From positions 62,001-126,000 of the forward strand of contig NZ_JALLGW010000003.1 of the NCBI RefSeq assembly GCF_023074835.1: a DNA stretch of 64,000 bases, given 5' to 3'. Shown piece by piece: positions 9,997 through 42,422 of this stretch. Numbering within the stretch: position 1 is the first letter of the stretch; each line of letters begins with the position of its first letter. The position numbers and the translations under genes were made by a program. The stretch comes from Halomarina salina. Its GTDB lineage: Archaea; Halobacteriota; Halobacteria; Halobacteriales; Haloarculaceae. The notes beneath the pieces are model-generated. The model was not told where the DNA came from, did no database searches, and saw only the letters and a program-made list of their open reading frames with translations.

Positions 9997-10009
9997 CGCC
10001 GTGGCCCCG

Positions 10010-28023: not shown

Positions 28024-28772
28024 GATCTGAACTCGTCGAGTCGTCCGCGTGCGTCACCGTCGTCGAACGCCCGTGCCATCGCGTCCGCCGCCTCCTCGCG
28101 GAGCGTCGAGACGTCGGCGGACGGCACGGGCGCACCGAGTCGTCGTTTCAGCGCGGCGATGGTGTGGCCGCTGTTCGCTTCGAGCGTATTCGTGAGGTCC
28201 GCTACCGCCTCGTCGAGGTCGTCGCTCGCCGCCGTTCGGCTGACGAACCCGGCGGACAGCGCCTCCGCTGCGGACACGTCGCGGCCGGTGAGGAGCCAGT
28301 CGCGCGCGCGACGCTCACCGACCAGTCGCGGGAGGAGCGCCACCGCGAGTCCCGAGATGGGGATGCCGAGTCGGACTTCGGGTACGGCGAACGTCGCGTC
28401 CTCCGTCGCGACGACGAGGTCGGCGGCCAGCGCGAGCAGGAAGCCGAACCCGAGCGCCCGCCCCTGCACGGCCGCGACGACCGGCAGCGGACACTCGCGG
28501 ACCGCGAGCGTCAGGTCGACGTACGTCTCCGAGAGCGCCCGCGCTTCGGCGTCGTCCGCGGGGTCGAGGTCGTCGAGGTCTGCACCCACCGAGAAGTGGT
28601 CGCCCGCCCCCCGGACGACGACCACCGAGCCGTCGGTCCGGTCGAGGTCGCGGATGGCGTCGACGAGCGCGTCCACCGCGTCGACGGGAAGCGCGTTGTA
28701 CGCGCCGGGGCGGTCGAGCGTCACCGTCACCTGTTCGCCGTCGGTCGTGACGGCGTGGTGGGCGTCGGTCAT
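28020..28772 (-). CDS. Enoyl-CoA hydratase/isomerase family protein
   Basis: 250 residues. Oxyanion-hole segments are FSVGADLDDLD and QGRALGFGFLLALAADL. The catalytic region reads VPEVRLGIPISGLAVALLPRLVGERRARDWLL: the first glutamate is present (PEVR), but the second crotonase glutamate position is Asp or Arg, so hydratase or isomerase cannot be decided. It overlaps LivF by 4 bases and the SCP2-like gene by 4 bases, tying a catabolic step directly to the importer. Confidence 0.92.
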   Translation of the reverse strand: MTDAHHAVTTDGEQVTVTLDRPGAYNALPVDAVDALVDAIRDLDRTDGSVVVVRGAGDHFSVGADLDDLDPADDAEARALSETYVDLTLAVRECPLPVVAAVQGRALGFGFLLALAADLVVATEDATFAVPEVRLGIPISGLAVALLPRLVGERRARDWLLTGRDVSAAEALSAGFVSRTAASDDLDEAVADLTNTLEANSGHTIAALKRRLGAPVPSADVSTLREEAADAMARAFDDGDARGRLDEFRS

Positions 28773-29482
28773 TCGAGCACCTGGTCGACGGCGTTCTGGT
28801 AGGCGTCCTCGAACTCGCCTCGCTCGCCGAGGTACTGGAGCGTGTTCTTGCGCATCAGGTACATCCGGTCGGAGACCTGCTTTGCCATCCGTATCTGCTC
28901 GTCGACGAGCAACACGGTGACACCCGACTCGCTGATGTCGACGATGGTATCCCGGATGTCCTCGACGATCTTCGGTGCGAGGCCGAGGGTCGGTTCGTCG
29001 AACATGATGAGGTCCGGGTCGATGACGAGACCCTGCGCGATGGCGAGCATCTGCTGTTGGCCGCCGCTCATCGTCCCGGCGACCTGCGACTGGCGGTCCC
29101 GAAGGATGGGGAACAGGTCGAACACACGGTCGAGTTGCTCGTCTCGCGAGACGTCGGCCGCCGGAATCATCGCCGTCTGGAGGTTGTTCCGGACGGTCAT
29201 CTCCGGGAAGATGCGGTGACGCTCCGGGACGTACGCGAGGCCCCTGTCGATGCGCTCGAACGGTTCCTCGCCCACGATGGACTCGCCGTCGAACCTGACG
29301 TCCCCGCTGTCGATGGCCTTCACGCCAGCGACCGCGTCGAGGAGCGTCGTCTTGCCAGCGCCGTTCGCGCCGACGATGGCCACGACGTCACCGGCCGGGA
29401 CGTTCAGGTCCGCGTCCCGGATGACCTCCATGTCGCCGTACGAGACGTGGAGGTCGTCGACCGTGAGGAGTTCGCGCGTCAT
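28769..29482 (-). CDS. livF: Branched-chain amino-acid-type ABC transporter ATPase (LivF-like)
   Basis: 237 residues from ATG 29,482, overlapping the LivG stop by 4 bases. Walker A GANGAGKTT, the LivF Q-loop region YVPERHRIFPEMTVRNNL, signature MSGGQQ and Walker B LIMFDEPTLGL are all normal. It is the ATPase with a canonical signature in this second importer, paired with a LivG whose signature is divergent. Confidence 0.92.
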   Translation of the reverse strand: MTRELLTVDDLHVSYGDMEVIRDADLNVPAGDVVAIVGANGAGKTTLLDAVAGVKAIDSGDVRFDGESIVGEEPFERIDRGLAYVPERHRIFPEMTVRNNLQTAMIPAADVSRDEQLDRVFDLFPILRDRQSQVAGTMSGGQQQMLAIAQGLVIDPDLIMFDEPTLGLAPKIVEDIRDTIVDISESGVTVLLVDEQIRMAKQVSDRMYLMRKNTLQYLGERGEFEDAYQNAVDQVLE

Positions 29483-30162
29483 ATCGCCATCTCCCCCAGG
29501 AAGTCCTCCCGAACCGTCTCGTCGTCGAGCATCTCCTCCGGCGTGCCGCGTTTCATCACCTGCCCCTGTGCGAGGATGGTGACGGTGTCCGCGAGGTCGA
29601 ACGCCGTCTCGATGTCGTGTTCGATGAGCATCAGCGTCTTCCGCTCGGCGAGGGCGTCGAGGTAGCCGACCATCGCCGGCTTCTCGGTCGGGTTGAGTCC
29701 CGAGAACACCTCGTCGAGCAGGAGGAGTTCGCCCTCGCTGGCCAGCGCCAGCGAGACGCGCTTGCGCTCGAACAGCGTCAGTTCGCTCCCCTCCTTGTCG
29801 TGGATGTCGAGGAGGTCGAGCAGTTCCATCATCTCGCGGGGCGAGGACTCGAACGCGCCGAGACTGATGTTCTCGGCGACGGTGAGTTCGTCGAACACGT
29901 CGACCTCCTGGAAGGTGCGTCGGATGCCCGTCCGGGCGGTCTTGTAGTCGGGTGTCGACGTGATGTCGGTCCCCTGGAACCTGACGGTGCCGTGGTCGGG
30001 GATGTGGTAGCCCGTGATGCAGTTGAACAGCGTCGTCTTGCCAGCCCCGTTCGGGCCGATGATGACGTTCGTCTCCCCGGACGCGACGTCGAACGTGACG
30101 CCGTCGAGGGCGACGATACCGCCGAACGTCCGTTCGAGGTCGTTCACCTCCAGAAGCGCCAC
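29479..30162 (-). CDS. livG: Branched-chain amino-acid-type ABC transporter ATPase (LivG-like) with non-canonical signature motif
   Basis: 227 residues. Walker A is GPNGAGKTT (36-44), Walker B LLLLDE (146-151) and the switch histidine is in LIEHDIETA. The LSGGQ signature is replaced by LTLFE (128-132) in the segment SELTLFERKRVSLAL. The signature of one ATPase completes the ATP site of the other, so one of the two sites in the LivG/LivF dimer may be weak. Some LivG subgroups are known to vary here. Overlaps LivM by 19 bases. Confidence 0.9.
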   Translation of the reverse strand: MALLEVNDLERTFGGIVALDGVTFDVASGETNVIIGPNGAGKTTLFNCITGYHIPDHGTVRFQGTDITSTPDYKTARTGIRRTFQEVDVFDELTVAENISLGAFESSPREMMELLDLLDIHDKEGSELTLFERKRVSLALASEGELLLLDEVFSGLNPTEKPAMVGYLDALAERKTLMLIEHDIETAFDLADTVTILAQGQVMKRGTPEEMLDDETVREDFLGEMAI

Positions 30163-31172
30163 GAGCGGTCACCTCCGTTGCCGAGTCGGTCGTACAGGCC
30201 CCCGAGGACTCCCCGCGGGAGGAACAGGACGACGACGATGAGCATCCCGCCGACGATGTAGGGCTTCATGTCCGAGAGGCCGAACGTCCGCACGACCTCC
30301 GGCAGTCCGACGAGGATGATGGCACCGATGATGGGGCCGTGGACCGTCCTGAGCCCCCCGACGACGGCGATGACGAGCAGGAAGACGGTCTGGTCGAGGG
30401 TGAACCCGCCGGGCGTGATGAGGCCGTTGACGTGAGCGTACAGCGACCCGCCGACGCCAAGCAGCAGGGCACCGACGACGACCGAGACGAACTTGTAGCG
30501 CGTCGGGTTGTACCCAATGGAGCGGAGCAGGTCCTCGTTCTCGCTCGTCGCCACCGCGAGCGTCCCGACCAGCGAGCGGTCGAACGTCGCCACGACGGCG
30601 ACGGCCACGGTGAGCACGGCCAGCAAGAAGAGGTACTGAGCCACCTGCGTCTCGAACGTCACGGGGCCGATGGCGGGGGCGGGGATGCCGCTGATGCCGG
30701 TCGGTCCGACCGCTCCCCAGTTCGTGAACAGGTAGTAGACGATCTCCTCGAAGGCGAGCGTCGCGATGATGATCTCGAACGACGACCCGATGGCGATAGC
30801 CGAGAGTGCGACGAGGCTCCCCACGACGGCGGCGACGACGCCCCCGGCGAGCATCGCCAGCAGGTAGGGGACGCCGAACACGTTCACGAGGAGCGCCGAG
30901 GTGACCCCGCCGATGACGGCCAGCGCCGCCGGACAGAACACGAGCAGGTTCGGCCAGCCGAGCATCAGGTTGTACCCCGAGGCCATCACGGCGAACACGA
31001 GGACGAGCAGCGCGGTGTAACCCACGTAGCTCGACGCCGACACGAGCGGGATGGCGAGGAGCCCCAGTACGAGCGTTATGCCGACGGACCGTGCGACCGA
31101 CTGCCACTCGATGCGTTCGAGGTCGCCGTCGATCTGCTCGCCTGCGACGCCGCTCGCGGTGTCGGTGCTCAT
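30144..31172 (-). CDS. livM: ABC transporter permease (LivM-like)
   Basis: 342 residues from ATG 31,172 (MSTDTASGVAGEQ), overlapping LivH by 4 bases. The hydrophilic N-terminus of about 28 residues is followed by some ten membrane segments. Family markers are GYNLMLGWPNLLVFCPAA and the coupling region VIAVVGGLRTVHGPIIGA. A frame reaching 31,922 exists upstream but reads Arg-rich shadow sequence of LivH. Confidence 0.92.
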   Translation of the reverse strand: MSTDTASGVAGEQIDGDLERIEWQSVARSVGITLVLGLLAIPLVSASSYVGYTALLVLVFAVMASGYNLMLGWPNLLVFCPAALAVIGGVTSALLVNVFGVPYLLAMLAGGVVAAVVGSLVALSAIAIGSSFEIIIATLAFEEIVYYLFTNWGAVGPTGISGIPAPAIGPVTFETQVAQYLFLLAVLTVAVAVVATFDRSLVGTLAVATSENEDLLRSIGYNPTRYKFVSVVVGALLLGVGGSLYAHVNGLITPGGFTLDQTVFLLVIAVVGGLRTVHGPIIGAIILVGLPEVVRTFGLSDMKPYIVGGMLIVVVLFLPRGVLGGLYDRLGNGGDRSWRFWR

Positions 31173-32098
31173 CGGGCCACCCCGCGAAGACCGCGAACGC
31201 GGTCGACGAGGACGGCCCCCAGGTTCTCCTCTCCCTCGTCCAGCAACACGGCCTTGGCGAGGAAGAACAGGATGAGGATGGCGAACTCGGAGGCGTAGAT
31301 GTAGTACGACGACAGGTAGAGGATGGCGAACGCCTCGTAGACGCCCAGCGCGTAGCCCGCGACGGCCGCGCCGAGCACTCGCCCGATTCCGCCGAGGATG
31401 ACGACGATGAACGCCTTGATGAGGAGCGATGCGCCCATGTCGGGCGTCAGCGAGAACATCGCCGCGTTCATCACGCCGGCGACGGCCGCCATGGCGCTCC
31501 CGAGGACGAACGCGACGAGGAACGTCCGGCTGACGTTGACCCCCTTGAGTCGCGCGAGATCGCGGTCCTGGACGATGGCCTGCAGTCCGAGGCCCGTGTT
31601 CGTGTAGTTGATGAGCCAGTAGAGGACCGCGAAGTTGGCGATCGAGAACACGACGACCAGGAGTTCGAGCGTCGTCACCGAGACGCCGAACGCTTCGAGG
31701 CTCCCCCGCTGCAGGCCCGCCAGGGAGACGGAGTGTGGCTCGTGGCCCCAGATCTGGGCGAACGCTCGCTCGAAGATGCGAGCGAGGCCGAGCGTGAGGA
31801 GGATGACGCCGAAGACGTACTCCGACTCCGACCGGTCGTACAGCGGTGCCAGGAGCCCCCGCTCGACGATGGCCCCCAGTGCGCCGATGACGACGACGGC
31901 CGCGACGATGCCGACCGGCCACGGGAGTCCCGAGAGCATCGTGACCTGGTAGAAGACGTACGCGCCGCCCGCGAACAGGGCCGCGTGCCCCATGTTCGGG
32001 ATGTCCATCACGCCGAAGATGATGGTGAAGCTCGCTGCGAACAGCGCGTAGATGCTCCCCTGGATGAGTCCGTTGACGAGGCTCTCTAGTAGTACCAT
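31169..32098 (-). CDS. livH: ABC transporter permease (LivH-like)
   Basis: 309 residues from ATG 32,098 (MVLLESLVNGLIQGSIY); upstream extension to 32,212 is not family-like. Markers are FTIIFGVMDIPNMGHAA early and KAFIVVILGGIGRVLGA late. About eight membrane segments. Starts 22 bases after the binding-protein stop and overlaps LivM by 4 bases. Confidence 0.92.
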   Translation of the reverse strand: MVLLESLVNGLIQGSIYALFAASFTIIFGVMDIPNMGHAALFAGGAYVFYQVTMLSGLPWPVGIVAAVVVIGALGAIVERGLLAPLYDRSESEYVFGVILLTLGLARIFERAFAQIWGHEPHSVSLAGLQRGSLEAFGVSVTTLELLVVVFSIANFAVLYWLINYTNTGLGLQAIVQDRDLARLKGVNVSRTFLVAFVLGSAMAAVAGVMNAAMFSLTPDMGASLLIKAFIVVILGGIGRVLGAAVAGYALGVYEAFAILYLSSYYIYASEFAILILFFLAKAVLLDEGEENLGAVLVDRVRGLRGVAR

Positions 32099-32120
32099 GA
32101 GTAGTGAGTTGAGCGCTGGT

Positions 32121-33389
32121 TCACAGGTCGACGTTGGGTGGGATGCTCGTGATCGGTGGCAGTTGACCGCTCCACGCGACGTCTTCGACGACGGCCGAGT
32201 CGCCGTCGGCACCGAACTTGATGAGCGACCCCGGGATAGCTGGCTGTCCCCGGTCGTTTATCGTCGTCTTCCCGAGCAGGGTCGTGATCTCGGTCCCGAC
32301 GAGGGCGTCGCGGATCTCCGACCCCTCCGTACTGCCCGCCTCCGCGATTCCCTGCCGGGCCGCCTGTGCGTCGGCGTAGACGTTGAACGCGGTCGGGTGC
32401 ATCGGCGCGTCGAGGCCCTTGTACTCCTCGAACTGCGAGAGCGCGTCCTCGGAGAGCGTCTCGGCGATGGCCGGGTTGTCGGCGTACGCGAGGCGGGTGT
32501 AGACGCCCAGCGCGTAGACGTTGTCCATCGCCGCTCCCACCTCGTCGATGCTGTTGTAGTCCGCGCCTCCCAGTCCCGTCAGAATCGGCATCTGCTCGTT
32601 GAGGCCCTCCCGAGCCTGCTGCTGGATGAACCGTTGCATCGCGGAGGCCCACGTCTGTACGTAGACGGCGTCGATGTTGTCGTTGTTGTACGCCCGCTTG
32701 GCCTTGGTGATGTACGAGGAGAAGTCCTGCTGGCTGAACGAGAAGCGACCAAGTTCGGTGTAGCCGCCGTCGTTGTCCGGCTGGTCGAACCACCAGTCCA
32801 TCAGCGCGAGCGTGTCGTCACCCCAGTCGCCCGTCTCGGCGATGACACCGATGTTCTGGATGTCGTCGCTCTGCTGGACCTGCCGGAGCGCGGGGTACGC
32901 GTCCATGACGGTGCTCACCGTCATCCGCATCATGTACGACCCGGGTTCGTTCACTTCGGGCGTGAACCCGTGGGTGAACGTCGGAATCTCGTTGTCGTTC
33001 GCGATGGGCGCGATGGCGATCGCACCCGTGCTCCGCCACGACGAGAGAATCATCGCCACGTTGTCGACGGTCGCGAGACGTTTCGCCGCCGACCGCGCAG
33101 CGCTGTTGTTGGACTCGTCGTCGTACTCGACGAGCGACACCTCGCGCTGGGTGCCGTCGACGTCGATACCACCGTCCTCGTTGATTCTGTTCTTCCAGGC
33201 CGTCTGCGTCTCCGTCGCGAGTTCGCCGTAGAACGCCGCCGCCCCCGAGAGGGGGTTGATCGCTCCGAGTTTTATCTTCCCCCCACCGCCGCCGCCGAGC
33301 ACACCGGTACAGCCCGCCAGACCGGCCGTCCCGAGGGTAGCCGCTACTGCACTACTCCGTCTGAGGAAACGTCGCCGTGTGTTATCCAT
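32121..33389 (-). CDS. ABC transporter substrate-binding lipoprotein (LivK-like)
   Basis: 422 residues from ATG 33,389. A twin-arginine signal (RRRFLRRSSAV, residues 5-15) and lipobox LAGC with Cys27 predict Tat export and lipid anchoring; GGGGGG follows. The mature domain begins KIKLGAINPLSGAAAFYGEL, typical of Leu/Ile/Val-type binding proteins. It opens an eight-gene operon ending at 26,856: binding protein, LivH, LivM, LivG, LivF, enoyl-CoA hydratase, SCP2-like, hydrolase. It is only distantly similar to the binding protein at 15,140, so the two importers probably have different ligands. A TATA-like TTTAACA (33,427-33,433, minus strand) precedes it. Confidence 0.93.
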   Translation of the reverse strand: MDNTRRRFLRRSSAVAATLGTAGLAGCTGVLGGGGGGKIKLGAINPLSGAAAFYGELATETQTAWKNRINEDGGIDVDGTQREVSLVEYDDESNNSAARSAAKRLATVDNVAMILSSWRSTGAIAIAPIANDNEIPTFTHGFTPEVNEPGSYMMRMTVSTVMDAYPALRQVQQSDDIQNIGVIAETGDWGDDTLALMDWWFDQPDNDGGYTELGRFSFSQQDFSSYITKAKRAYNNDNIDAVYVQTWASAMQRFIQQQAREGLNEQMPILTGLGGADYNSIDEVGAAMDNVYALGVYTRLAYADNPAIAETLSEDALSQFEEYKGLDAPMHPTAFNVYADAQAARQGIAEAGSTEGSEIRDALVGTEITTLLGKTTINDRGQPAIPGSLIKFGADGDSAVVEDVAWSGQLPPITSIPPNVDL

Positions 33390-33459
33390 GTACGAACACT
33401 CTGCGCGGACAATCCCCGCATAATGTGTTAAAGGTATCGGTGAGTTCGAAGTACGTTGC

Positions 33460-35094
33460 TCATCCCTGATAGCGACCGGCGATTCGGTCCCGGAGCTCCG
33501 TCTTCTGTATCTTCTCGCCGTGGGGCCCCTCCGACCGGGGGAACGCGTCGACGAACTCCACGTCCTCCGGTTCCTTGTAGTCCGCCACCCGGTCGTCGAG
33601 GTACTCGTACAGGGCCTCGGTGGTGAGCCCGTCGTCCGCACGCTTGACGAACGCCACAGCGACCTGACCGTGGCGGGGGTGAGGAACGCCGACGACCTGC
33701 GAGAGTTCGACGCCGGGGTGCTCGTCGAGGACGGTCTCGATGTCCCGCGGTGCGACGAGGAACCCGCGAATCCGGAGGGCGTCGTCCATCCGCGACTGGT
33801 AGTAGAGGTTCCCAGACTCGGGGTCGCGGACTGCGAGGTCACCCGTGTGGAACCAGCCCTCGTCGTCGAAGGCCGCCTCGGTCTTCTCGGGTTTCCCGAG
33901 GTAGCCCTCCATGACGTTGAACCCGCGGAGACACAGTTCGCCCGCCTCGCCGTCCGGGCGTTCCTCGTTCGTCTCGACGTCGACGACCCGCGCCGCTTCC
34001 TCCTCCGGAAATATCATGGGGCCGCCGACCTGCTTGCGCGTCTCGGGGTCGGCGTCCGGGTCGCCGACGAACACCTGGCTGTTCGCCTCCGAGAGGCCGT
34101 AGGGCTGGCAGACCGGGATACCAGTCCTGCGCTCTATCTCCTCGAACAGCGCCTCGTCGTACCCTATGCTGACGAAGCCGGTCGCTCCCTTCGAGAGGCT
34201 CTCGACGCGGGCCTCGTCGAACGCGTCGTGGTCGAGCAGGCGCTGGAACATCGTCGCCAGTGCCGACATGTAGGTCACACCGTAGCGTTCGACGTTCTCG
34301 ACGGTCCACTCGGGCTCGAAGTGCGTCTGAACGACCTGTGGGACGCCGTGGGTCAGCGCGCTCATGAACATGTTGTACCCCCAGACGCCACAGAACGGGA
34401 GGAGGCCCAGCGCGACGTCGTCTCCGTCGAGGCCGAAGTGGACCCCGACCTGATGGGAGTGATTGAGCATCGACCGGTTCGACTGGAGGACGCCCTTCGG
34501 GTCGCTCGTCGTCCCGCTGGTGTAGAAGACGCAGACCGGCGCCTCCGGGTCGGTCGCTGCCGGGACATCGTCGCGCCCCGCGCCCGCCTCCGTGACGGCG
34601 TCGTAGTCCCGGACAGCCGGATAGTCCTCGTGTGCGTCGAGCGCGATTACCTGGTCCAGCGACGGGACCGAGTCGGGGGCGAACGCGGAGGGTGCGCTCG
34701 TCGCTATCTCGGGGACGACGTCGGCCACCATGTCCAGATACTGGTTACCCAGGAACGACTCCTCGGTGAGCAGGACCGAACACCCGGAGTCGGTCAGCAT
34801 GTACTCCAGTTCGTGGGTCCGGTAGCGCGTGTTGACGGCGACGATAGCCGCACCGAGGTACGATGCCGCCAGTTGTGCCTGGATCCACTCCGGGCGGTTG
34901 CTCAACCAGACCGCGATGGTGTCGTCCTCGCCGACGCCCAGGTCGGCGAGGCCGTGTGCGAGCGCCCGACTCTCCTCGACGAGGGTGGCGTAAGTCGTCT
35001 CCTCGCCCTCGAAGTGAAGCGCGACGGCGTCCGGGTCGTCGCTCGCGACGTCGGCTATCCCCTGGTAGACCGTGGCCTCCGGCCAGCGCAACAT
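33460..35094 (-). CDS. AMP-forming acyl-CoA synthetase
   Basis: 544 residues. The P-loop FYTSGTTSDPKGVL, YGLSEANSQV, hinge TGDLAVRDPESGNLYYQSR and C-terminal lysine in HGEKIQKTEL identify the adenylate-forming acyl-CoA synthetase family. It makes a CoA ester with ATP. The substrate-binding segment LPFCGVWGYNMFMSAL differs from the enzyme at 23,302. It starts 45 bases after the DUF35 gene of the second retro-aldolase-like module and ends 70 bases before the binding-protein gene of the importer operon. A TATA-like TTCTTTTG about 26 bases upstream gives it its own promoter. Confidence 0.93.
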   Translation of the reverse strand: MLRWPEATVYQGIADVASDDPDAVALHFEGEETTYATLVEESRALAHGLADLGVGEDDTIAVWLSNRPEWIQAQLAASYLGAAIVAVNTRYRTHELEYMLTDSGCSVLLTEESFLGNQYLDMVADVVPEIATSAPSAFAPDSVPSLDQVIALDAHEDYPAVRDYDAVTEAGAGRDDVPAATDPEAPVCVFYTSGTTSDPKGVLQSNRSMLNHSHQVGVHFGLDGDDVALGLLPFCGVWGYNMFMSALTHGVPQVVQTHFEPEWTVENVERYGVTYMSALATMFQRLLDHDAFDEARVESLSKGATGFVSIGYDEALFEEIERRTGIPVCQPYGLSEANSQVFVGDPDADPETRKQVGGPMIFPEEEAARVVDVETNEERPDGEAGELCLRGFNVMEGYLGKPEKTEAAFDDEGWFHTGDLAVRDPESGNLYYQSRMDDALRIRGFLVAPRDIETVLDEHPGVELSQVVGVPHPRHGQVAVAFVKRADDGLTTEALYEYLDDRVADYKEPEDVEFVDAFPRSEGPHGEKIQKTELRDRIAGRYQG

Positions 35095-35139
35095 ATACCG
35101 CGAGGACGATTACCACAGACAAAAGAATTCGGGTTGGGG

Positions 35140-35601
35140 TCAGTCCAGTCCGAACACCGGGACGGACACGTCCTCGCGTTCGGTGGGAACGAACTCGACG
35201 CCGACGCTCGCGCCCACCTCGACGTCGTCCGGGTCGCAGTCGACCAGATTCGTCATCACCCGCGGCCCCTCGACGAGTTCGACGTACGCGACGACCAGCG
35301 GCAGGTCCGCCTCCGGCCACCCCTCCATCCGCTCGGCGACGGAGTAGGTGTAGACGGTCCCCTCACCGGACGCCTCGGTCCACTCCGTCTCCGCGAAGCA
35401 GTCCGGGCACCGCGCCCGCGGGTAGTGGACGACGAGGCCGCAGTCGGGACAGCGACTGAGCAGCAACACCCCGTCGCTCGCGGCCGCCCAGTACCGTTCG
35501 CTCTCGGGTGTCACGTCGGGCAGCGGTCGCGGCTCCCATGTCTCCGGTGCGTCGCTCATCTCGTCCGACCCGTCGCGCTCGTCGTCCGACCCGTCGCTCA
35601 T
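35140..35601 (-). CDS. DUF35 (zinc ribbon plus OB-fold) partner of the second cysteine-less thiolase
   Basis: 153 residues from ATG 35,601; the first 20 residues are acidic and variable, and ATG 35,559 is also possible. The helix SERYWAAASDGVLLLSR leads to a zinc ribbon with Cys51, Cys54, Cys65, Cys68 (CPDC twice), then an OB-fold with GEGTVYTYSVAERM and VMTNLVDCDPDDVEVG. It overlaps the thiolase-like gene by 4 bases. The predicted role is to bind and complete that protein, as the DUF35 domain of ChsH2 does for Ltp2. Confidence 0.88.
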   Translation of the reverse strand: MSDGSDDERDGSDEMSDAPETWEPRPLPDVTPESERYWAAASDGVLLLSRCPDCGLVVHYPRARCPDCFAETEWTEASGEGTVYTYSVAERMEGWPEADLPLVVAYVELVEGPRVMTNLVDCDPDDVEVGASVGVEFVPTEREDVSVPVFGLD

Positions 35602-36767
35602 GTCCGGCCCTCCGCGCCGAGGACGAGCGTCGCCGCCCCGTGTCTGGTGGCGATGGAGCCGCCCGTGCCGTGGGCGAGTGCGACGTCGGCGTCGACCTGC
35701 ACCTCCTCGTTGGCCTCGCCGCGCACCTGCCGGACGGCCTCGATGACCTTCGTCATCCCGCCGCGGTTCCCGGGGTGGTTCGAGCAGAGGCCCCCGCCGT
35801 CGGTGTTGAACGGCAGGTCGCCGTCCGCTCTGAGGGTGCCGCCCTCGACGAACCGCCCGCCCTCGCCCTTCTCGCAGAATCCCAGGTCCTCCAGCGCTTC
35901 GAGGACGGTGATGGTGAACGAGTCGTAGATGGAGGCGTAGTCGACGTGTTCGGGGCCGAGACCGGCCTCCGCGAACGCCCGCTCGCCGGACTGGACCGCG
36001 CCGGTCGTCGTCACGTCGACGCGCCCCGCGTCGTGGTGTTTCGGGGCCTCGCCGTGGCCGAGCACCTCGACGCACTCGCGGTCGAGGTCGGCACGAACGT
36101 CCTCGCTGACGACCAGCAACGCACCGCCGCCGTCGGAGATGACACAGCAGTCCAGCAGGTGGAGGGGGTCGGCGACGACGGGCGAGTCGAGGACGTCGTC
36201 GACCGAGACGGGGTCCTGGTACATCGCGTCGTCGTTGTACTGCGCGTGGTAGGAGGCGGCGGCGCGAACCTCCGCCAACTGGGCGCTCGTCGTCCCGTAC
36301 TCGTGCATGTGGCGACGTGCCGTCATCCCGTACATCGTCACGTTCGTCGTGCCGTAGATGCGCTCGTAGCTGTCCTGGACGGTCCGGAGCTTCCGGGTTC
36401 CCGACCCGGTGGCCTGCCCCCGCGAGCGTGGCCGCCCGGCGAGCGTGACGAGCGCGACGTCGCACTTCCCGTCGCGGATCGCGCTCGCCGCGTGCCCGAC
36501 GTGGGCGACGTACGACGACCCGCCGTAGTCCGTCGTGTCCGCGTACGACAGGTCGAGGCCGAGGTAGTCGGCTGCCATCAGCGGCGTCAGCGAGTGCTCC
36601 ATCTCCGGGACGCCCGCCGTGAAGTACGCGTCGACCGCGTCCTTCGAGAGGCCGGCGTCGTCCAGTGCCCCCGCCGCCACGTCGGCGGTCAGTTGCATGG
36701 TCGACCGGTCCGGAGCCTCCCGCGTCGGGTGTTCGAACGCACCAGCGACGTACACGGACTCGGCCAT
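35598..36767 (-). CDS. Thiolase-like protein without nucleophilic cysteine (Ltp2/SCP-x-like, candidate retro-aldolase)
   Basis: 389 residues from ATG 36,767, which overlaps the stop of the small ORF before it. The segment that should hold CATGS reads DTTDYGGSSYVAHVGHA (78-94), so the cysteine is missing. The middle motif is IYDSFTITVLE with Tyr281 in place of the histidine of HDCF. The C-terminal GGGLCSNHPGNRGG (324-337) is kept. This combination is that of the steroid side-chain aldolase Ltp2 rather than of thiolases. With the DUF35, MaoC, dehydrogenase and CoA-transferase genes of the same operon it gives a second retro-aldolase-like module. It is clearly diverged from the copy at 8,839. 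Confidence 0.87.
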   Translation of the reverse strand: MAESVYVAGAFEHPTREAPDRSTMQLTADVAAGALDDAGLSKDAVDAYFTAGVPEMEHSLTPLMAADYLGLDLSYADTTDYGGSSYVAHVGHAASAIRDGKCDVALVTLAGRPRSRGQATGSGTRKLRTVQDSYERIYGTTNVTMYGMTARRHMHEYGTTSAQLAEVRAAASYHAQYNDDAMYQDPVSVDDVLDSPVVADPLHLLDCCVISDGGGALLVVSEDVRADLDRECVEVLGHGEAPKHHDAGRVDVTTTGAVQSGERAFAEAGLGPEHVDYASIYDSFTITVLEALEDLGFCEKGEGGRFVEGGTLRADGDLPFNTDGGGLCSNHPGNRGGMTKVIEAVRQVRGEANEEVQVDADVALAHGTGGSIATRHGAATLVLGAEGRT

Positions 36768-36913
36768 CAGACCACACCTCCCGACCCGTCCCTCGTGGAG
36801 CTGTCGACGACTACCGTCGCGTCGGGGTAGTCGAGTTCTCTCGCCGTCGTGCGACCGGTGCCGTGGCCGTCGACGGTGGCGATACACCGCTTCTCGTCCG
36901 GAATGTCACTCAT
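36767..36913 (-). CDS. Small ORF of 48 residues inside the second retro-aldolase-like operon
   Basis: ATG 36,913 lies 12 bases after the CoA-transferase stop, and the TGA stop (36,769-36,767) overlaps the ATG of the thiolase-like gene. The product begins MSDIPDEKRCIATVDGHGTG and has one cysteine, a Gly-rich turn and a hydrophobic strand. No family is recognised. Tight packing on both sides supports translation; it may be a small subunit, a coupling ORF or the remnant of a larger gene. Confidence 0.45.
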   Translation of the reverse strand: MSDIPDEKRCIATVDGHGTGRTTARELDYPDATVVVDSSTRDGSGGVV

Positions 36914-36925
36914 GAGTCGTAGCTC

Positions 36926-38404
36926 TCAGTCTCTGTCGGCGTGCCAGTCGAGCGCAGTTTCGATGTCGTGTGGGATGTGGCCGCCGCGTGAGCGGCCGCG
37001 GTTCAGGTAGTCGGTCAGGTCGTCCCGGTAGTCGGGGTGGGCGCACTCCTCGACGAGCGCACGGGCGGTCTCCCTGGGAGCGTTCCCCCGGAGGTCCGCG
37101 ACCCCCTGTTCGGTGACGACCACGTCGACGTCGTGTTCGGTGTGGTCGACGTGCGGGACCATCGGGACGATGCGAGAGATGTCGCCACCGGCCGCCGTCG
37201 ACGGCAGGGCGACGACGGCCAGCGGCGAGTGGCGGTTGAAGTCGCCGCTGCCGCCGACGCCGTTCATCGCCCGCGTCCCGTCGACGTGCGTCGAGTTGAC
37301 GTGCCCGAACAGGTCGAGTTCGAGCGCGCTGTTGACGGCGACGACGCCGAACCGGTCGATGAGCGCCCCGCTGTTCGAGAGGTCGGCGGGCCGGAGGACG
37401 ACGTCCTCGGCGTAGCGCTCGGCGTTCTCGAACAGACGGTCCTGGCCCTCGGTCGAGAGCGCGAGCGACGTCGCGCTCGCGGCGGTCAGTTCGCCCTCGT
37501 CGAGCAGGTCGAGCAGGCCGTCCTGGATGACCTCGCCGAAGTAGATCAGGTCCCGGTCCCCGAGGTCGGTGTCGCCGAGCGCCCCCATCAGGGCGTTGCC
37601 GAGGCTGCCGACCCCGAACTGGATGCGCAGCGACTCCTCGAACAGCGGCGAGCGCTCGACCTCGCGTTCGACGAACTCGCGGAGGTTCGCGGCGATGGTC
37701 CGGTCGTCGTCGGTCGGGTCGCGGAACGAGTACGGCTGGTCGCGCCGGTCGGTCTCGACCACCGCATCGAGTTTCTCGGGGTCGAACGTGACGCGCTCGC
37801 CCCCGATTCGCCCACCGGGGTCGGTGAGCGGAATCGGGTCGCGGTTCGGCGGCGTCCCCGGGCGGTAGACGTCGTGGAACGCGGCGAGTTCGGTCGGGAC
37901 CGTCTCGTTGACCTCGACGACGAGGCGGTCGGCGCTCTCGACGAACGCGGGCGTCTGACCGATGCTCGTCGAGGGAATCAGCCAGTCCGCGCCGACCGCC
38001 AGCGCCTCGACGACGGCGACGCGCTCTCCCTCTCCGGTGAGACCGCCGAACTGCACTTCGTCGCCGAGCGTGCTGACGTCTCGGTCGTGGAACGCGATAC
38101 GGCCGTCGTTGACCGCCGCCCGCGCTGGCGGTCGCGCCTGATACGGAAACCGGCGGGCGATTGCGTCGGCCTCGACGAGGGCGACGTCTATCTCCTCGCC
38201 GACGCTCCCGCCGCTGACGACGGTCAGGGCGAGGTCACGCCCAGAGTCGGCCAGCGCGAGCGGGACCGCCTTCGGGTAGCCGACGCTCCCGAACCCGCTG
38301 ACCAGCAGCGTCGCGTCGTCCTCGACGTCGGCGGCCACGTCCGCGGCGCTTCGGACGGGGAGGTCGCCCTGTAAGCGGGCTGTGGTCGAACGCTCGCCGC
38401 CCAT
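36926..38404 (-). CDS. Acetyl-CoA hydrolase/transferase family CoA-transferase (Cat1/AarC-like)
   Basis: 492 residues from ATG 38,404, whose last base is shared with the stop of the MaoC gene (TGATG type). The two Rossmann-like CoA-transferase halves are visible: LLVSGFGSVGYPKAVPLAL near the N-terminus and QFGVGSLGNALMGAL with YFGEVIQDGLLDLLDEG near the middle, the latter glutamate being the likely CoA-carrying residue. The end has VTEQGVADLRGNAPRETA, typical of acetyl-CoA hydrolases/succinyl-CoA:acetate transferases. It may recycle CoA from or to the acids made by the module. Confidence 0.9.
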   Translation of the reverse strand: MGGERSTTARLQGDLPVRSAADVAADVEDDATLLVSGFGSVGYPKAVPLALADSGRDLALTVVSGGSVGEEIDVALVEADAIARRFPYQARPPARAAVNDGRIAFHDRDVSTLGDEVQFGGLTGEGERVAVVEALAVGADWLIPSTSIGQTPAFVESADRLVVEVNETVPTELAAFHDVYRPGTPPNRDPIPLTDPGGRIGGERVTFDPEKLDAVVETDRRDQPYSFRDPTDDDRTIAANLREFVEREVERSPLFEESLRIQFGVGSLGNALMGALGDTDLGDRDLIYFGEVIQDGLLDLLDEGELTAASATSLALSTEGQDRLFENAERYAEDVVLRPADLSNSGALIDRFGVVAVNSALELDLFGHVNSTHVDGTRAMNGVGGSGDFNRHSPLAVVALPSTAAGGDISRIVPMVPHVDHTEHDVDVVVTEQGVADLRGNAPRETARALVEECAHPDYRDDLTDYLNRGRSRGGHIPHDIETALDWHADRD

Positions 38405-38946
38405 CAGTCGTCCTCCGGTTGCGTGCCGACGCCCGCTGGCCACCCCGGCGGCTTGGCGGCCGAGGGTTCGGCGTACTCGCGTTTGAGTACCATCGGCGTC
38501 CGCTCCAGCGAGAGCACCAGGTCGTCGTCCTGATTGTACGCCCGGAGTTCGGTCGTGACGATGCCGACGTGGTCTCGGCTCTCCGTTTCGCGCTTCGAAA
38601 CCACCTCCGACTCGGAGAACAGCGTGTCGCCGTGGAAGACGGGCGCGTGATGGCGGATGTCGTCGTAGCCCAGGTTCGCCGTCGCGTTCATCGAGACGTC
38701 GATGACGCTCATCCCGACGACGAGGGCGATGACGAACGTCCCGTTGACGAGTCGTTCGCCGAACTCCGTCTCCGCGGCGTACGCCTCGTTGAAGTGCATC
38801 GGGTTGACGTTCATCGTGACGTTGGTGAACCAGACGTCGTCCGTCTCGGTCACCGTCCGCCCGTACGGGTGCTTGTAGACGTCGCCGATCTCGAAGTCTT
38901 CGTAGAACCGTCCCTGCCAGCCGTCTTTGAGTGTGCGTTCGCTCAT
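38404..38946 (-). CDS. MaoC-family enoyl-CoA hydratase
   Basis: 180 residues from ATG 38,946. The hot-dog domain has the hydratase helix region TNVTMNVNPMHFNEAYA with His51; the usual catalytic aspartate is Asn46, a variation seen in the mesaconyl-CoA hydratase-like branch. GERLVNGTFVIALVVGMSV follows. It would hydrate the enoyl-CoA formed by the dehydrogenase 5 bases upstream. The single subunit here replaces the two-subunit hydratase of the first module. Confidence 0.92.
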   Translation of the reverse strand: MSERTLKDGWQGRFYEDFEIGDVYKHPYGRTVTETDDVWFTNVTMNVNPMHFNEAYAAETEFGERLVNGTFVIALVVGMSVIDVSMNATANLGYDDIRHHAPVFHGDTLFSESEVVSKRETESRDHVGIVTTELRAYNQDDDLVLSLERTPMVLKREYAEPSAAKPPGWPAGVGTQPEDD

Positions 38947-38951
38947 CGTAA

Positions 38952-40169
38952 TCAGTAGCTCCGTGGGAGGTCGAGGACGTTCTCCCCGATGAAGTTCAGT
39001 GCGAGCTGTTGCGTGATGGGGACCAGCCTGGTCAGCCGAGCCTCGCGGAAGTAGCGCTCGACGTCGTACTCGCGGGCGATGCCGAACCCGCCGTGGGTCT
39101 GGACGGCGGCGTCGGCGGCCTCGAACGCGGCGTTCGCGGCGAGGAACTTCGACATGTTCGCCCGCGCGCCGACGTCCTTCGCGTCGTCGTCGCCGACGGC
39201 GGCGCTCGCCGCGCTGTACACCATCTGCTTGGCGGCCTGGACGTGCGCGTGTGCCTCGGCCAGCGGGTGCTGAATCGCCTGGTTCGAGCCGATGGGTCGA
39301 CCGAACACCTCGCGTTCGTTCGCGTACCCGACGCCCGCCTCGATGGCCGCCTCGCCGAGACCGACGCACTCGGCGGCGATGACCAGACGCTCCTCGTTGA
39401 GACCGTCGAGCATCTGGTAGAACCCCTCGCCCTCCTCGCCGATGGCCGCCGACACCGGGAGCCGGAGGTCCTCGAAGAACAGCTCGTAGGAGTGGACGAA
39501 GTTACTCGCCGTCTTGTCGATCTGCTTGAGCTCCAGTCCGCCCTGGTCGTACGCCTCCTCCAGATCGACGAGGAACATCGTCAGGCCTCTCGTCCGCTTC
39601 TCGACCTCGTCGCGCGGCGTGGTGCGAGCCATCAGAATGAGGTAGTCGCTGGCGTCGACGCGGGAGATCCATATCTTCTGGCCGTTGACGAGGTACTCGT
39701 CCTCGTCGGCGTCGCCCGCGCCCCGTTCGGCGCGCGTCTCGATGGCCGTCGAGTCGGAGCCGGCGTTCGGCTCGGTGAGTCCGAACGCCTGGATGGACGT
39801 CTCGCCGCGGGCCACCTCGGGGACGATCTCCTCTTTCATCTGCTCGCTCCCGTACTCGACGAGCGGGACGGAGTTGTAGATGGCACCGTGGACCGCCTGT
39901 GCGGCACTGAACCCGCCGCCGGAGGCCGCTATCTCCTCCATCATGACGACGACCTCCTCGGTCGTCATGCCCGCCCCGCCGTACTCCTCGGGGAGCAACG
40001 CGCCGAACCAGCCGTGCTCTCCGAGCGTGTCGACGAACTCGCTCGGGTACTCTCCTGCGGCGTCCTTCTCGCGCCAGTAGGCCGCGTCGTACTCGTCGCA
40101 GACGTCTCGTATCGACTCCCGGACCAGTTGTTGCTGGTTCGAGAGTTCGACCGTGTCAGTACTCACCAT
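38952..40169 (-). CDS. Acyl-CoA dehydrogenase
   Basis: 405 residues. Markers: QAFGLTEPNAGSDSTAIETR for FAD and substrate, DKTASNFVHSYELFFEDLRLP in the beta domain, and QTHGGFGIAREYDVERYFRE in the last domain. The C-terminus (ITQQLALNFIGENVLDLPRSY) lacks a clear YEG glutamate. First gene of the second retro-aldolase-like operon (dehydrogenase, MaoC, CoA-transferase, small ORF, thiolase-like, DUF35). Its start lies 50 bases from the stop of the PrpD-like gene, which is on the same strand upstream. Confidence 0.93.
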   Translation of the reverse strand: MVSTDTVELSNQQQLVRESIRDVCDEYDAAYWREKDAAGEYPSEFVDTLGEHGWFGALLPEEYGGAGMTTEEVVVMMEEIAASGGGFSAAQAVHGAIYNSVPLVEYGSEQMKEEIVPEVARGETSIQAFGLTEPNAGSDSTAIETRAERGAGDADEDEYLVNGQKIWISRVDASDYLILMARTTPRDEVEKRTRGLTMFLVDLEEAYDQGGLELKQIDKTASNFVHSYELFFEDLRLPVSAAIGEEGEGFYQMLDGLNEERLVIAAECVGLGEAAIEAGVGYANEREVFGRPIGSNQAIQHPLAEAHAHVQAAKQMVYSAASAAVGDDDAKDVGARANMSKFLAANAAFEAADAAVQTHGGFGIAREYDVERYFREARLTRLVPITQQLALNFIGENVLDLPRSY

Positions 40170-40219
40170 TGAGTGTGGGAGGAATCAGCTACCTGCAGTA
40201 TTAAAATTACGGGTGGGCG

Positions 40220-41554
40220 TTACTCGGCGAGCGCGTCGGCGACGTCCGGATGGTCGTCGAGGGTCAGGAGGGTGTCCGCGAGTCGGTCCACGGCGGTGTC
40301 GGGGACGGCACGGCCTGCGCACTCCGCGAACTTCTCACGGAGTTCTGACTCGGTGAGCGGGTCGCCGTGGGTACCCGGCGGGTTCTCCTGCCGGCGCTCG
40401 TACGTCCCGTCGGCCGTCTCGATACGTACGACCGCTTCGTGAGAGTCGTAGTGGAACGACTCGTCGACGCTGAACTCGACTCTCTCGCGAACCCGCTGGA
40501 CGGTGGCATCGTCGATAGCGTCGTCCTCGAACGTGGCGAGACCGACCCGCTCGCGGACCGCGCCGCTGGCGACGGCGTACTCCATCGAGAACTTCGCCTC
40601 CAGCCCCGTTTCGGGGTCGACGTGGTGGAGTGCGTCGGCGGCCCCCTGGGCGGCGCGGACCTGGATGCGCTCGACGTCCTCCGGGTCGACTCCGTGCTCC
40701 TCCACCAGCGCCTGGGTCGCGGCGATGCTGGTGTGCGTGAAGTAGCAACAGGGGTAGTACTTGACGTGGATGCCCTCCGTCTCCAGCGCCCACTCGTCGG
40801 GGTCGAAGGCGAACTCGTCCCGTTCTTCGGGGCCGTAGAGGTCCCAGAACCCCCGGTCGCCGCTGACAGCGGTCGCGTCGGCGGTGAACCCGTTCTCCGC
40901 GAGCAGCGCCGCCGTGACGCCCGAGCGCGCACAGAGGCCGGCGTGGAGGGGTTTCGTCATCGACCCGAAGTTCCGCTTCAGCCCCGCTGGCGTCGACGCG
41001 GCCACGTTCAGCGCGTGGCGCGTCTCCTCGGTGTCGAGGTCCAGCAACGAGGCGACGGCCGCCGCCGCGCCGAACGCGCCGAACGTGGCGGTGGCGTGCC
41101 AGCCTGCCTCGTAGTGGTCGGGACTGATGGGGTCGGCGAGCGCGCACTCCACTTCGAAGCCAGCCGCATACGCGGCGACGAGCGCTTCGCCGGACGCCCC
41201 CCGCTCCCCGGCGAGTGCGAAGAGCGCCGGGACGAGCGTGACGCTCGGGTGGCCGTCCATCGCCCACGAGAGGTCGTCGTAGTCGAGCGCGTGGCTCGCG
41301 GTACCCGTTCGCAGGGCTCGCTCGGCGGCGCTCGCGGACGTGGTGAGGCCGAGCGTCGCGGCGACGTCGCCGTCGTCTGGCCGACTGTCCAACGCCTCGA
41401 ACGTCGTCTCCCCGGCGCCCTCGACTGCGCCGGCGAGCGTGACGCCCGCCGTGTCGAGGAACGCCCGGCGGACGGTCTCGCGGGCGTCGTCTGGTACCTC
41501 GGCGAACGTGAGCGTGGCCGCGAACTCGGCGAGTTCGGTCTCGGGTGAAGCCAT
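40220..41554 (-). CDS. MmgE/PrpD family protein
   Basis: 444 residues from ATG 41,554; ATG 41,563 is an alternative, and the TATA element ACGTTTATC favours the former. The all-helical N-terminal domain has GTASHALDYDDLSWAMDGHPS and the second domain KYYPCCYFTHTSIAATQAL. The family includes 2-methylcitrate dehydratase, cis-aconitate decarboxylase and cyclic-acid lyases, so it could act on a tricarboxylic intermediate that the citryl-CoA lyase-like protein might later cleave. It is divergent from an IclR gene 94 bases away, which probably controls it. Confidence 0.9.
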   Translation of the reverse strand: MASPETELAEFAATLTFAEVPDDARETVRRAFLDTAGVTLAGAVEGAGETTFEALDSRPDDGDVAATLGLTTSASAAERALRTGTASHALDYDDLSWAMDGHPSVTLVPALFALAGERGASGEALVAAYAAGFEVECALADPISPDHYEAGWHATATFGAFGAAAAVASLLDLDTEETRHALNVAASTPAGLKRNFGSMTKPLHAGLCARSGVTAALLAENGFTADATAVSGDRGFWDLYGPEERDEFAFDPDEWALETEGIHVKYYPCCYFTHTSIAATQALVEEHGVDPEDVERIQVRAAQGAADALHHVDPETGLEAKFSMEYAVASGAVRERVGLATFEDDAIDDATVQRVRERVEFSVDESFHYDSHEAVVRIETADGTYERRQENPPGTHGDPLTESELREKFAECAGRAVPDTAVDRLADTLLTLDDHPDVADALAE

Positions 41555-41577
41555 ACCGGACATCGACGAGGAGAGCG

Positions 41578-41624
41578 GATAAACGTTGACCAGACACGCG
41601 TGTTCGACGATACGGGACTTTAAG
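41578..41624. promoter_or_regulatory. Divergent promoter region with palindrome between PrpD-like and IclR genes
   Basis: For the minus gene a TATA-like GTTTATC lies at 41,579-41,586. A perfect ACACGCGTGT palindrome (41,594-41,603) sits midway. For the plus gene TTTAAG (41,619-41,624) lies 25 bases before ATG 41,649. One regulator bound at the palindrome could control both directions. Confidence 0.5.
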
Positions 41625-41648
41625 TGTAGAGCGTCCGTCGGTGTGCAC

Positions 41649-42422
41649 ATGAACGACGACACGCGGCCGGGGGGCGTCGACACGGTCAGCTCCGCCGAGA
41701 CGCTGTTCGAAATCGTCGAATACATCTCGGAGGCGGAGGGACAGACCGTCTCGGAGATCGCGTCGAACCTCGACTACGCGAAGAGTACCGTCCACCGACA
41801 CCTCACGACGCTCGAACAGTGTGGGTACGTCGTGAGAGACGGCGGCTACTACGTCGGCCTGCGCTTTCTCGAACTCGGTCAGCAGGCGCGCAACCGTCAC
41901 CGCGCGTACCGCCTCGCTCGCGACAAGGTGGACGAACTCGCCGCCGAGACCGACGAGCGCGCCCAGTTCATCGTCGAGGAGCACGGGGAGGCGGTCTACA
42001 TCCACCGGACGTTCGGCGCGCACGCCGTTCGAACCGACCCCGGCATCGGGAAACGCATCCCGCTGCACGCTACGTCCGCGGGAAAGGCGATTCTCGCCTC
42101 GATGACCGACGAACGGCGGTCCCGCATTATCGAACAGACCGCGTTCGACGCCATCACGGGGGAGACCATCACCGACCCAGAGGAACTCGACGAGGAACTC
42201 GCTCGCATCACGGAACGCGGGTACGCCTTCAATCGCCAGGAGAACGTGGACGGCCTCCACGCCGTGGGCGTCCCGGTGACCGGGCCCGACGATACCATCA
42301 TCGGCGCGCTCAGCGTGTCCGGTCCCAGCCACCGCCTCACCGGTGACTGGTTCGAGAACGAACTCCCCGCGCTGCTGCTCGGGGCGGCGAACGAACTCGA
42401 ACTCAACATCGCGTACGCGTAG
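41649..42422 (+). CDS. IclR family transcriptional regulator
   Basis: 257 residues from ATG 41,649; the TATA spacing and family N-terminus exclude the longer frame from 41,586. The winged helix contains GQTVSEIASNLDYAKSTVH (about 35-55). The effector domain shows GKRIPLHATSAGKAILASM and VSGPSHRLTGDW. It is related to the regulator at 20,710, particularly in the C-terminal half. Likely targets are the divergent PrpD-like gene and perhaps the operon beyond it. It marks the last gene of the high-GC catabolic district. Confidence 0.93.
   Translation: MNDDTRPGGVDTVSSAETLFEIVEYISEAEGQTVSEIASNLDYAKSTVHRHLTTLEQCGYVVRDGGYYVGLRFLELGQQARNRHRAYRLARDKVDELAAETDERAQFIVEEHGEAVYIHRTFGAHAVRTDPGIGKRIPLHATSAGKAILASMTDERRSRIIEQTAFDAITGETITDPEELDEELARITERGYAFNRQENVDGLHAVGVPVTGPDDTIIGALSVSGPSHRLTGDWFENELPALLLGAANELELNIAYA

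Follow-up and report, generated by a model that had tools for sequence, protein, structure and literature searches.

Organization of the locus

The window, a 64-kb stretch of the Halomarina salina genome, contains on its minus strand an operon in which genes for an acyl-CoA dehydrogenase, a MaoC hydratase and a CoA-transferase precede a 48-residue open reading frame (ORF), a thiolase-fold protein, its DUF35 partner and an acyl-CoA synthetase (Table 1). A previous sequence-only reading had described this order correctly, and rightly stated that, compared with another retro-aldolase-like operon (module A), the hydratase is of a different type and the thiolase has diverged. The operon is not, however, uninterrupted as proposed, as the 48-residue ORF is an SDR gene remnant (see below), and starts and stops overlap not throughout but at three of the six junctions (from dehydrogenase to synthetase, the first, third and sixth junctions are gaps of 5, 12 and 45 bp, and the second, fourth and fifth are overlaps of 1, 1 and 4 bp). 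The unit also extends beyond 35140–40169 on both sides, with MmgE/PrpD and divergent IclR genes upstream and a LIV-type ABC transporter downstream.

Table 1. Position and assignment of the genes at the operon locus (window coordinates).
Feature	Position	Strand	Remarks
Acyl-CoA dehydrogenase	38952..40169	-	Subfamily also present in MmgE/MaoC/CoA-transferase/CoA-ester-lyase clusters
Single-domain MaoC hydratase	38404..38946	-	Asn-x4-His replacing Asp-x4-His; RipB/Ich the closest model in NCBIfam
Class I (Cat1/ScpC-like) succinate-type CoA-transferase	36926..38404	-	NF053853
48-codon relic of SDR dehydrogenase gene	36767..36913	-	First 37 codons, perhaps last few
Thiolase-fold protein, predicted retro-aldolase	35598..36767	-	NF006010; nucleophile Cys absent
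DUF35 partner	35140..35601	-	Zinc ribbon C-x2-C-x10-C-x2-C + OB fold
AMP-forming acyl-CoA synthetase	33460..35094	-	Starts 45 bp past DUF35
MmgE/PrpD-family protein	40220..41725	-	Pfam PF03972 + PF19305; ORF limits, start codon uncertain
IclR-family regulator, divergent from operon	41643..42422	+	Sequence read as IclR; cluster c3
LIV-type ABC transporter genes (substrate-binding protein, permease, ATPases)	28769..33842	-	Pfam, four ORFs; outer ORF limits

The large genes of the operon are real and under constraint, as judged from their coding composition (GC3 of 0.89–0.91 in the four longest) and low dN/dS values (0.03–0.19 against two other haloarchaeal copies, with one DUF35 pair saturated). 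The operon order is conserved in three genera, the H. salina window included. The synthetase occupies the same place in loci L023 (74%) and L092 (78%), where a substrate-binding protein and one permease are also found downstream of the operon. Retention of the gene order in two other genera, together with co-occurrence and proximity, supports the earlier proposal that the genes function jointly. The IclR cluster comprises 16 members across 14 of the 50 clustered loci, and by tblastn the regulator matches the IclR encoded in the Sneathiella operon (discussed below) at 29%.

Active site of the thiolase-fold protein

The thiolase-fold protein scored 553.1 bits against NF006010 (the PRK08142 thiolase-domain subfamily), above the curated cut-off of 462, and contains the motifs G82-G83, Y281-D-S283-F, H331-P and H366-G-T-G-G. 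Alignment places a Gly where thiolases have their nucleophile Cys. This Gly and the YDSF motif are present in 117 of 117 thiolase rows and His331 in 116, the rows deriving from an 80-locus set (17 archaeal and 63 bacterial) and 37 haloarchaeal loci, with at least 12 loci common to both. The description of the protein as ‘cysteine-less' thus holds for the catalytic nucleophile and not otherwise, as C207, C208, C298 and C328 are present. That the thiolase might be an inactive relic, a possibility raised at the outset, is excluded by a dN/dS of 0.03–0.07 against other haloarchaeal copies and by the invariant motifs; it is the 48-residue ORF of which this is true.

A fold search ranked 4u4e first, followed by Sal, a Pyrococcus thiolase and Ltp2. 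In the alignment the Pyrococcus enzyme and BbsB retain the nucleophile Cys, the lack of which rules out assignment of the window protein as a canonical thiolase or a member of BbsAB. The AlphaFold model has a mean pLDDT of 70, falling below 50 in the active-site loops, and we therefore make no claim about geometry from it. According to a study of Ltp2 and Sal, both enzymes use the YDx[FY] Tyr as their catalytic base; in Sal a Gly replaces the nucleophile Cys, and activity is lost on mutation of Cys304 to Ser (PMC12329534). The second catalytic residue of Ltp2 (Tyr344) or Sal (Cys304) is not matched in the window protein, which has His331 and Ser283, and we therefore class it as working like these enzymes but not as either of them. 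Ser283 stands at the place of Sal Cys304, where a Ser inactivates Sal, which counts against retro-aldol cleavage. The active-site signature nevertheless supports the earlier label ‘retro-aldolase-like', the activity itself being predicted, and retro-aldol chemistry appears more probable for this putative aldolase than thiolysis.

A decayed SDR gene upstream of the thiolase

The 48-residue ORF matches the N-terminus of a 299-residue SDR (51% over 37 amino acids; 0 of 5,000 shuffles), the intact gene for which occupies the place of the ORF in the haloarchaeal operon L092. Only the first 37 residues of the SDR are represented; the complete Rossmann domain and the catalytic residues are absent. 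The last codons of the ORF possibly match the end of the SDR, by eye only. The ORF matched no protein family in Pfam or NCBIfam, and no counterpart was found upstream of the thiolase in 15 other loci. Thus, lacking a family and counterparts and matching the SDR N-terminus, it was rejected as a small functional peptide, and by sequence it is a relic of an SDR dehydrogenase gene. The SDR gene has also been lost from the Natronomonas operon. Its loss from both organisms, with the rest of the operon remaining constrained, is what would be expected if there were no need for a 3-keto intermediate.

It could be argued that the operon encodes a modified β-oxidation of the Bbs type, in which the dehydrogenase and hydratase are followed by a hydroxyacyl-CoA dehydrogenase (the SDR step, now provided in trans) and thiolase–DUF35 carries out retro-Claisen cleavage of a 3-ketoacyl-CoA, as for benzylsuccinate. 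The full operon at L092 retains an intact SDR, the nearest solved relative of which is the (3R)-hydroxyacyl-CoA dehydrogenase 2et6, and a 3HCDH- or SDR-type dehydrogenase lies within 3 kb of the thiolase in 17 of 41 haloarchaeal loci (a tally counted by hand from the locus rows); both fit a 3-ketoacyl-CoA step and count against retro-aldol cleavage. The single NCBIfam match of DUF35, moreover, is BbsA, albeit below the cut-off. Against this view, the nucleophile Cys kept by BbsB is missing, the SDR is a relic in H. salina and gone from Natronomonas, and the best other SDR in the H. salina genome is only 41% identical. We consider such a pathway rather unlikely.

Enzymes predicted to act on a small diacid

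The best solved relative of the MmgE/PrpD protein is the IDS epimerase 2hp0, which it matches at seven of seven sites (H85, D88, H99, Y145, H150, K198 and K266, the 2hp0 numbering having been mapped onto the protein by us). P. aeruginosa Msi differs in having Glu91 at a site where the window protein and 2hp0 both contain Asp. The two-base His/Tyr site of MmgE/PrpD isomerases is thus retained, and the protein is predicted to be a 2-substituted succinate isomerase/epimerase. The CoA-transferase scored 524.2 bits against NF053853 (ScpC), above the curated cut-off of 500, and aligns at the Glu of the [YG]xEVIQD motif, the catalytic residue; the P. aeruginosa-type CoA-transferase of the methylsuccinate/itaconate cluster is a class III enzyme. 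The best NCBIfam match of the MaoC hydratase was NF038241 (RipB/Ich), at 171.8 bits against a cut-off of 340, and a score of half the cut-off counts against a methylsuccinate-type reading. All 80 close haloarchaeal rows of the hydratase (the window is one of them, and some loci overlap) have its Asn-His pair, in contrast to the Asp and His reported for H. mediterranei PhaJ proteins (PMC4823750), and a PHA-type PhaJ was thus rejected.

These subfamilies are shared with bacterial clusters of the C5-branched-diacid type. Of six bacterial loci inspected that contain MaoC relatives at 50–57%, those of Rhodococcus, Thermus, Amycolatopsis, Variovorax and Rubrobacter include at least two of a CoA-ester lyase, MmgE, a CaiB transferase and a dehydrogenase; the sixth, from Polaromonas, had no cluster partners, which counts against a diacid pathway. 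The window dehydrogenase, a candidate methylsuccinyl-C4-CoA dehydrogenase, matches those of three similar clusters at 43–47% and a fourth at 32%; in this comparison similar clusters on plasmids were stand-ins for the characterized Ich, Mcd and Msi sequences.

The likeness to methylsuccinate clusters may reflect shared subfamilies only, the retro-aldolase operon serving a longer or different branched acid, such as an isoprenoid- or sterol-derived side chain. Steroid side chains are the substrates of Ltp2 and Sal (PMC12329534), the same thiolase is found in many other contexts, and a synthetase accompanies the CoA-transferase. The MmgE/PrpD protein, the Asn-His MaoC and the succinate-type CoA-transferase, however, indicate a small dicarboxylate, and no steroid-specific gene was recognized among the window proteins scanned, making a longer substrate distinctly unlikely.

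Distribution and linkage

MaoC is present in 91 of the 93 haloarchaeal genomes that carry the dehydrogenase. Both genes occur in 17 of 27 thiolase-positive genomes, and in 8 of these 17 the thiolase and MaoC are no more than 12 kb apart. These counts assume an identical draw of the 391-genome sample; the homology cut-offs (E 1e-60, 1e-90 and 1e-150) were our choice, and Fisher tests ignored relatedness. Each of the 41 haloarchaeal thiolase loci has an adjacent DUF35 gene. These loci comprise the 37 haloarchaeal matches and four named loci of the 80-locus set; that set includes 13 further archaeal loci, of which 12 are on the same contigs, judged by length, and L126 (3.5 kb) was left out. Within 10 kb of the thiolase, the dehydrogenase was found in only 10 of the 41 loci and MaoC in only 10 (labels being best tblastn hits at identity cut-offs set in the script), which, like the absence of the thiolase from 111 of 128 MaoC-positive haloarchaeal genomes, counts against a dedicated diacid operon.

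No CitE match was found within the 64-kb window. The H. salina genome encodes two CitE-like proteins elsewhere, one near another MaoC (L238), so cleavage in trans is possible, again a point against the preferred reading. That the dehydrogenase, MaoC, CoA-transferase and MmgE form a methylsuccinate/mesaconate module that depends on such a CitE to cleave its citramalyl-CoA, with thiolase–DUF35 a neighbour catalysing some unrelated reaction, would also fit the thiolase-free genomes and the Haloprofundus and Haladaptatus clusters, which have no nearby thiolase, but is improbable given the overlapping genes, the order kept in three genera and the proximity in 8 of 17 genomes.

Discussion

We propose, with a probability of roughly 0.4, that the operon catabolizes a small branched diacid of the 2-alkylsuccinate type, ending in retro-aldol cleavage by thiolase–DUF35; the substrate, the direction and each catalytic role are what we infer from the gene content, conservation and active-site residues. 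Methylsuccinate is the simplest candidate. The acid would be imported by the ABC transporter, its C2 stereoisomers equilibrated by MmgE/PrpD, and its CoA ester made by the CoA-transferase (or synthetase). The acyl-CoA dehydrogenase would then introduce a double bond, to which MaoC would add water, generating a tertiary 3-hydroxyacyl-CoA (citramalyl-CoA from methylsuccinate). As a tertiary alcohol cannot be oxidized to a ketone for thiolysis, thiolase–DUF35 would split it in a retro-aldol reaction, releasing acetyl-CoA and a 2-oxoacid (pyruvate), with Tyr281 abstracting the hydroxyl proton and His331, possibly Ser283, protonating the enolate.

A bolder and doubtful extension is that a haloarchaeal Cys-less Tyr-His thiolase with DUF35 replaced the CitE-type citramalyl-CoA lyase for methylsuccinate or a larger 2-alkylsuccinate, providing a third thiolase-fold aldolase design after Tyr-Tyr (Ltp2) and Tyr-Cys (Sal), outside steroid breakdown. 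In the Sneathiella-type bacterial operon a CitE-like lyase lies beside the same thiolase–DUF35 in 8 of 10 copies, indicating that the thiolase is not simply a CitE substitute and counting against our main proposal too. Thiolase–DUF35 is a testable alternative to CitE lyase. In the open-access literature searched, thiolase-fold aldolases have been characterized on steroid side chains only; if correct, our proposal would bring this chemistry to small metabolites, provide haloarchaea with a methylsuccinate route, and suggest a role for subfamily members annotated ‘thiolase domain-containing protein' or ‘acetyl-CoA acetyltransferase'. Members of this conserved family occur in haloarchaea, Alphaproteobacteria and Actinobacteria; their Tyr-Ser-His site is almost invariant, and in haloarchaea they are linked to genes like those of C5-branched-diacid clusters.

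Comparison with known systems

The bacterial methylsuccinate/itaconate cluster, as described in Cupriavidus and Pseudomonas, encodes a CoA-transferase, itaconyl-CoA hydratase, citramalyl-CoA lyase, acyl-CoA dehydrogenase and MmgE isomerase, with the isomerase reported almost only in Pseudomonadota (PMC12290011). Four of these five gene types are also in the window, which differs in being archaeal, in its class I CoA-transferase and thiolase–DUF35, and in the absence of a CitE-type citramalyl-CoA lyase from the locus. The alphaproteobacterial operon of the Sneathiella type (ten copies, L141 among them) has the dehydrogenase, thiolase, DUF35, MaoC, SDR, IclR and a CoA-transferase in common; its further genes encode two CaiB transferases, an enoyl-CoA hydratase and the CitE-like lyase, and it has no MmgE match. 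The closest solved relative of the thiolase, 4u4e from Sphaerobacter thermophilus (40% identity by structural alignment), shares YDSF, THP and HGTGG, its entry title, ‘putative thiolase', giving no function.

Ltp2–ChsH2 and Sal–Shy share with the window the thiolase fold, Gly for Cys, the catalytic Tyr of YDx[FY] and a DUF35 partner. The third residue of that motif is Ser in the window thiolase, His in Ltp2 and Cys in Sal, and the position of His331 is occupied by Tyr344 in Ltp2 and Gln352 in Sal; the window hydratase, in addition, is unfused to DUF35, with no steroid context seen. The benzoylsuccinyl-CoA thiolase BbsAB likewise combines a thiolase fold with DUF35 in a pathway of CoA-ester dicarboxylates, but BbsB retains the nucleophile Cys and has HDAF in place of YDSF.

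Results

Every gene that the sequence-only reading had named at 35140-40169 was found there on the minus strand. Its claim that starts and stops overlap throughout held at three of the six junctions: from the dehydrogenase to the synthetase these comprise a gap of 5 bp, an overlap of 1, a gap of 12, overlaps of 1 and 4, and a gap of 45 bp, so that translational coupling is likely for some gene pairs only. By eye, a T/A-rich stretch that could be a promoter lies in the 50 bp separating the stop of MmgE/PrpD from the start of the dehydrogenase gene. Full operons, including synthetase and transporter genes, occur in the window and at two other haloarchaeal loci, L023 (Natronomonas) and L092 (genome G180, another family).

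Coordinates of the operon and of other features discussed
Feature	Location	Coordinates	Strand
Operon, MmgE/PrpD to LIV-type ABC transporter	window	~28769-41725	minus
Module A thiolases, one canonical, one without nucleophile Cys	window	5012-6175 and 8839-10080	minus
Region of lower G+C	window	40000-64000	
MmgE/PrpD fragment upstream	L092	~6854-7386	
Thiolase adjoining MaoC gene	L072	6896-8077	minus
CitE-like lyase gene and neighbours	L238	5805-8500	

The thiolase of the operon scores above the NF006010 cut-off, and alignment to solved proteins places Gly at the position of the nucleophile Cys of BbsB and the Pyrococcus thiolase. It carries YDSF where the steroid aldolases Ltp2 and Sal have YDHF and YDCY, respectively, and NHP in place of Gln352 (Sal) or Tyr344 (Ltp2); the Tyr of the motif is the catalytic base in both aldolases, according to an excerpt of PMC12329534. 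Gly, Tyr and Ser occupy the active-site positions in 117/117 aligned rows, and His331 is present in 116, although these rows count at least 12 loci twice. DUF35, with four Cys arranged as C-x2-C-x10-C-x2-C, directly follows the thiolase in all 41 haloarchaeal loci. The predicted model adopts the thiolase fold, the first hits of a fold search being 4u4e (a putative thiolase of Sphaerobacter thermophilus), Sal, a Pyrococcus thiolase and Ltp2. The Gly substitution, the YDSF motif, the adjoining DUF35 and these fold neighbours favour aldol over Claisen chemistry for the predicted thiolase-DUF35 pair. Since the Cys304Ser variant of Sal is inactive (PMC12329534, in excerpt), His331 is the likelier acid of the predicted active site.

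In module A, the thiolase with canonical motifs (NACATG, HDCF, GHP) and the one lacking the nucleophile Cys (GGTSG, YAPF) each adjoin a DUF35 gene. The thiolase at L072 has Ser at the expected place of the nucleophile Cys (NEASGSG).

Identity of the operon dehydrogenase to its counterparts in clusters of Rhodococcus, Thermus and Rubrobacter is 43-47%, compared with 32% for the Variovorax counterpart. The former clusters contain a MaoC gene plus, variously, MmgE, CaiB, CoA-ester lyase or a fumarase-type hydratase, and their dehydrogenases share with that of the operon an AP[IV]/VPI motif, at a position occupied by EGT in two solved acyl-CoA dehydrogenases. The Asn-x4-His motif of MaoC is retained in 80/80 close rows and in 6/6 bacterial rows (~50-57% identity); one of the six bacterial loci read, in Polaromonas, had none of the MmgE, CaiB, CoA-ester lyase or dehydrogenase-type partners. 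At each of the seven catalytic positions listed in PMC12290011, the MmgE/PrpD protein agrees with IDS epimerase.

Among 391 genomes of the class, MaoC occurs in 128, the dehydrogenase in 93 and the thiolase in 27. MaoC is present in 91 of the 93 dehydrogenase-bearing genomes, and 17 of the 27 thiolase-bearing genomes have both. The thiolase co-occurs with the dehydrogenase (Fisher, p 7e-6) and with MaoC (8e-4) in tests that ignore relatedness; in 8 of the 17 genomes thiolase and MaoC lie at most 12 kb apart (binomial 5e-14 under random placement).

L092 has an intact 299-residue SDR between CoA-transferase and thiolase in an otherwise identical gene order. The 48-residue ORF of the window is 51% identical to the first 37 residues of this SDR (E 7e-9; score reached by 0/5000 shuffles); its glycine motif is damaged, and dN is ~0.33, versus 0.07-0.21 in intact operon genes. 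At the same place in L023 ~100 bp are left. Thus, the SDR gene is decayed or lost in two of three full-operon copies. No closer SDR above 41% identity was found in the window's genome. The upstream MmgE/PrpD gene of L092 is only a short fragment, and so a different gene appears to have decayed there than in the window.

Other arrangements were also observed. In Haloprofundus sp. MHR1 (L203) and Haladaptatus caseinilyticus (L204), genes for IclR, MmgE/PrpD, acyl-CoA dehydrogenase, MaoC and CoA-transferase are clustered, with TAXI-TRAP transporter genes after them; the thiolase is absent from both clusters. At L079, L080 and L095 the same MaoC, CoA-transferase and dehydrogenase adjoin genes of clusters c23, Asp/Glu racemase-like as read by eye, and c42 and c43, guessed from length and place only to be hydantoinase/oxoprolinase-like. 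Right of the operon, G+C drops from ~0.68 to 0.59-0.64, and ParA-like and weak integrase matches occur, which suggests a different history for this side. The 64-kb window contained no tRNA genes.

Discussion

Within 3 kb of the 41 haloarchaeal thiolase loci, 3HCDH occurs in 10, SDR in 9 and either in 17, neighbours that leave room for beta-oxidation instead of a retro-aldol route; within 10 kb, dehydrogenase and MaoC each occur in 10, MmgE in 7 and CoA-transferase in 6. Room is likewise left for citramalyl-CoA-type cleavage by a lyase acting in trans, as two CitE-like genes lie elsewhere in the window's genome. One, at L238, has a glutamate-dehydrogenase-like gene and a further MaoC of Ich type in its vicinity, and its product is a possible citramalyl-CoA lyase in trans. 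The alphaproteobacterial Sneathiella-type operon, found at 10 bacterial loci among 80 thiolase loci, includes a CitE-like gene in eight, the other two being contigs that end early.

The operon is real, conserved and catabolic, and its key enzyme is most likely to work like the Ltp2 and Sal aldolases without itself being one of them. Citramalyl-CoA is a tertiary alcohol. The Ltp2 substrate is a tertiary alcohol too (C17 hydroxyl; PMC12329534, in excerpt), and thus retro-aldolase cleavage of citramalyl-CoA would be chemically fitting. The predicted pathway, with its putative substrate, most likely resembles methylsuccinate degradation. According to PMC12290011, bacterial proteins of such types mediate the isomerisation of methylsuccinate, dehydrogenation, activation, hydration and the cleavage of citramalyl-CoA. 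All of these types but the last are present in the operon, with thiolase-DUF35 in the place of the lyase.
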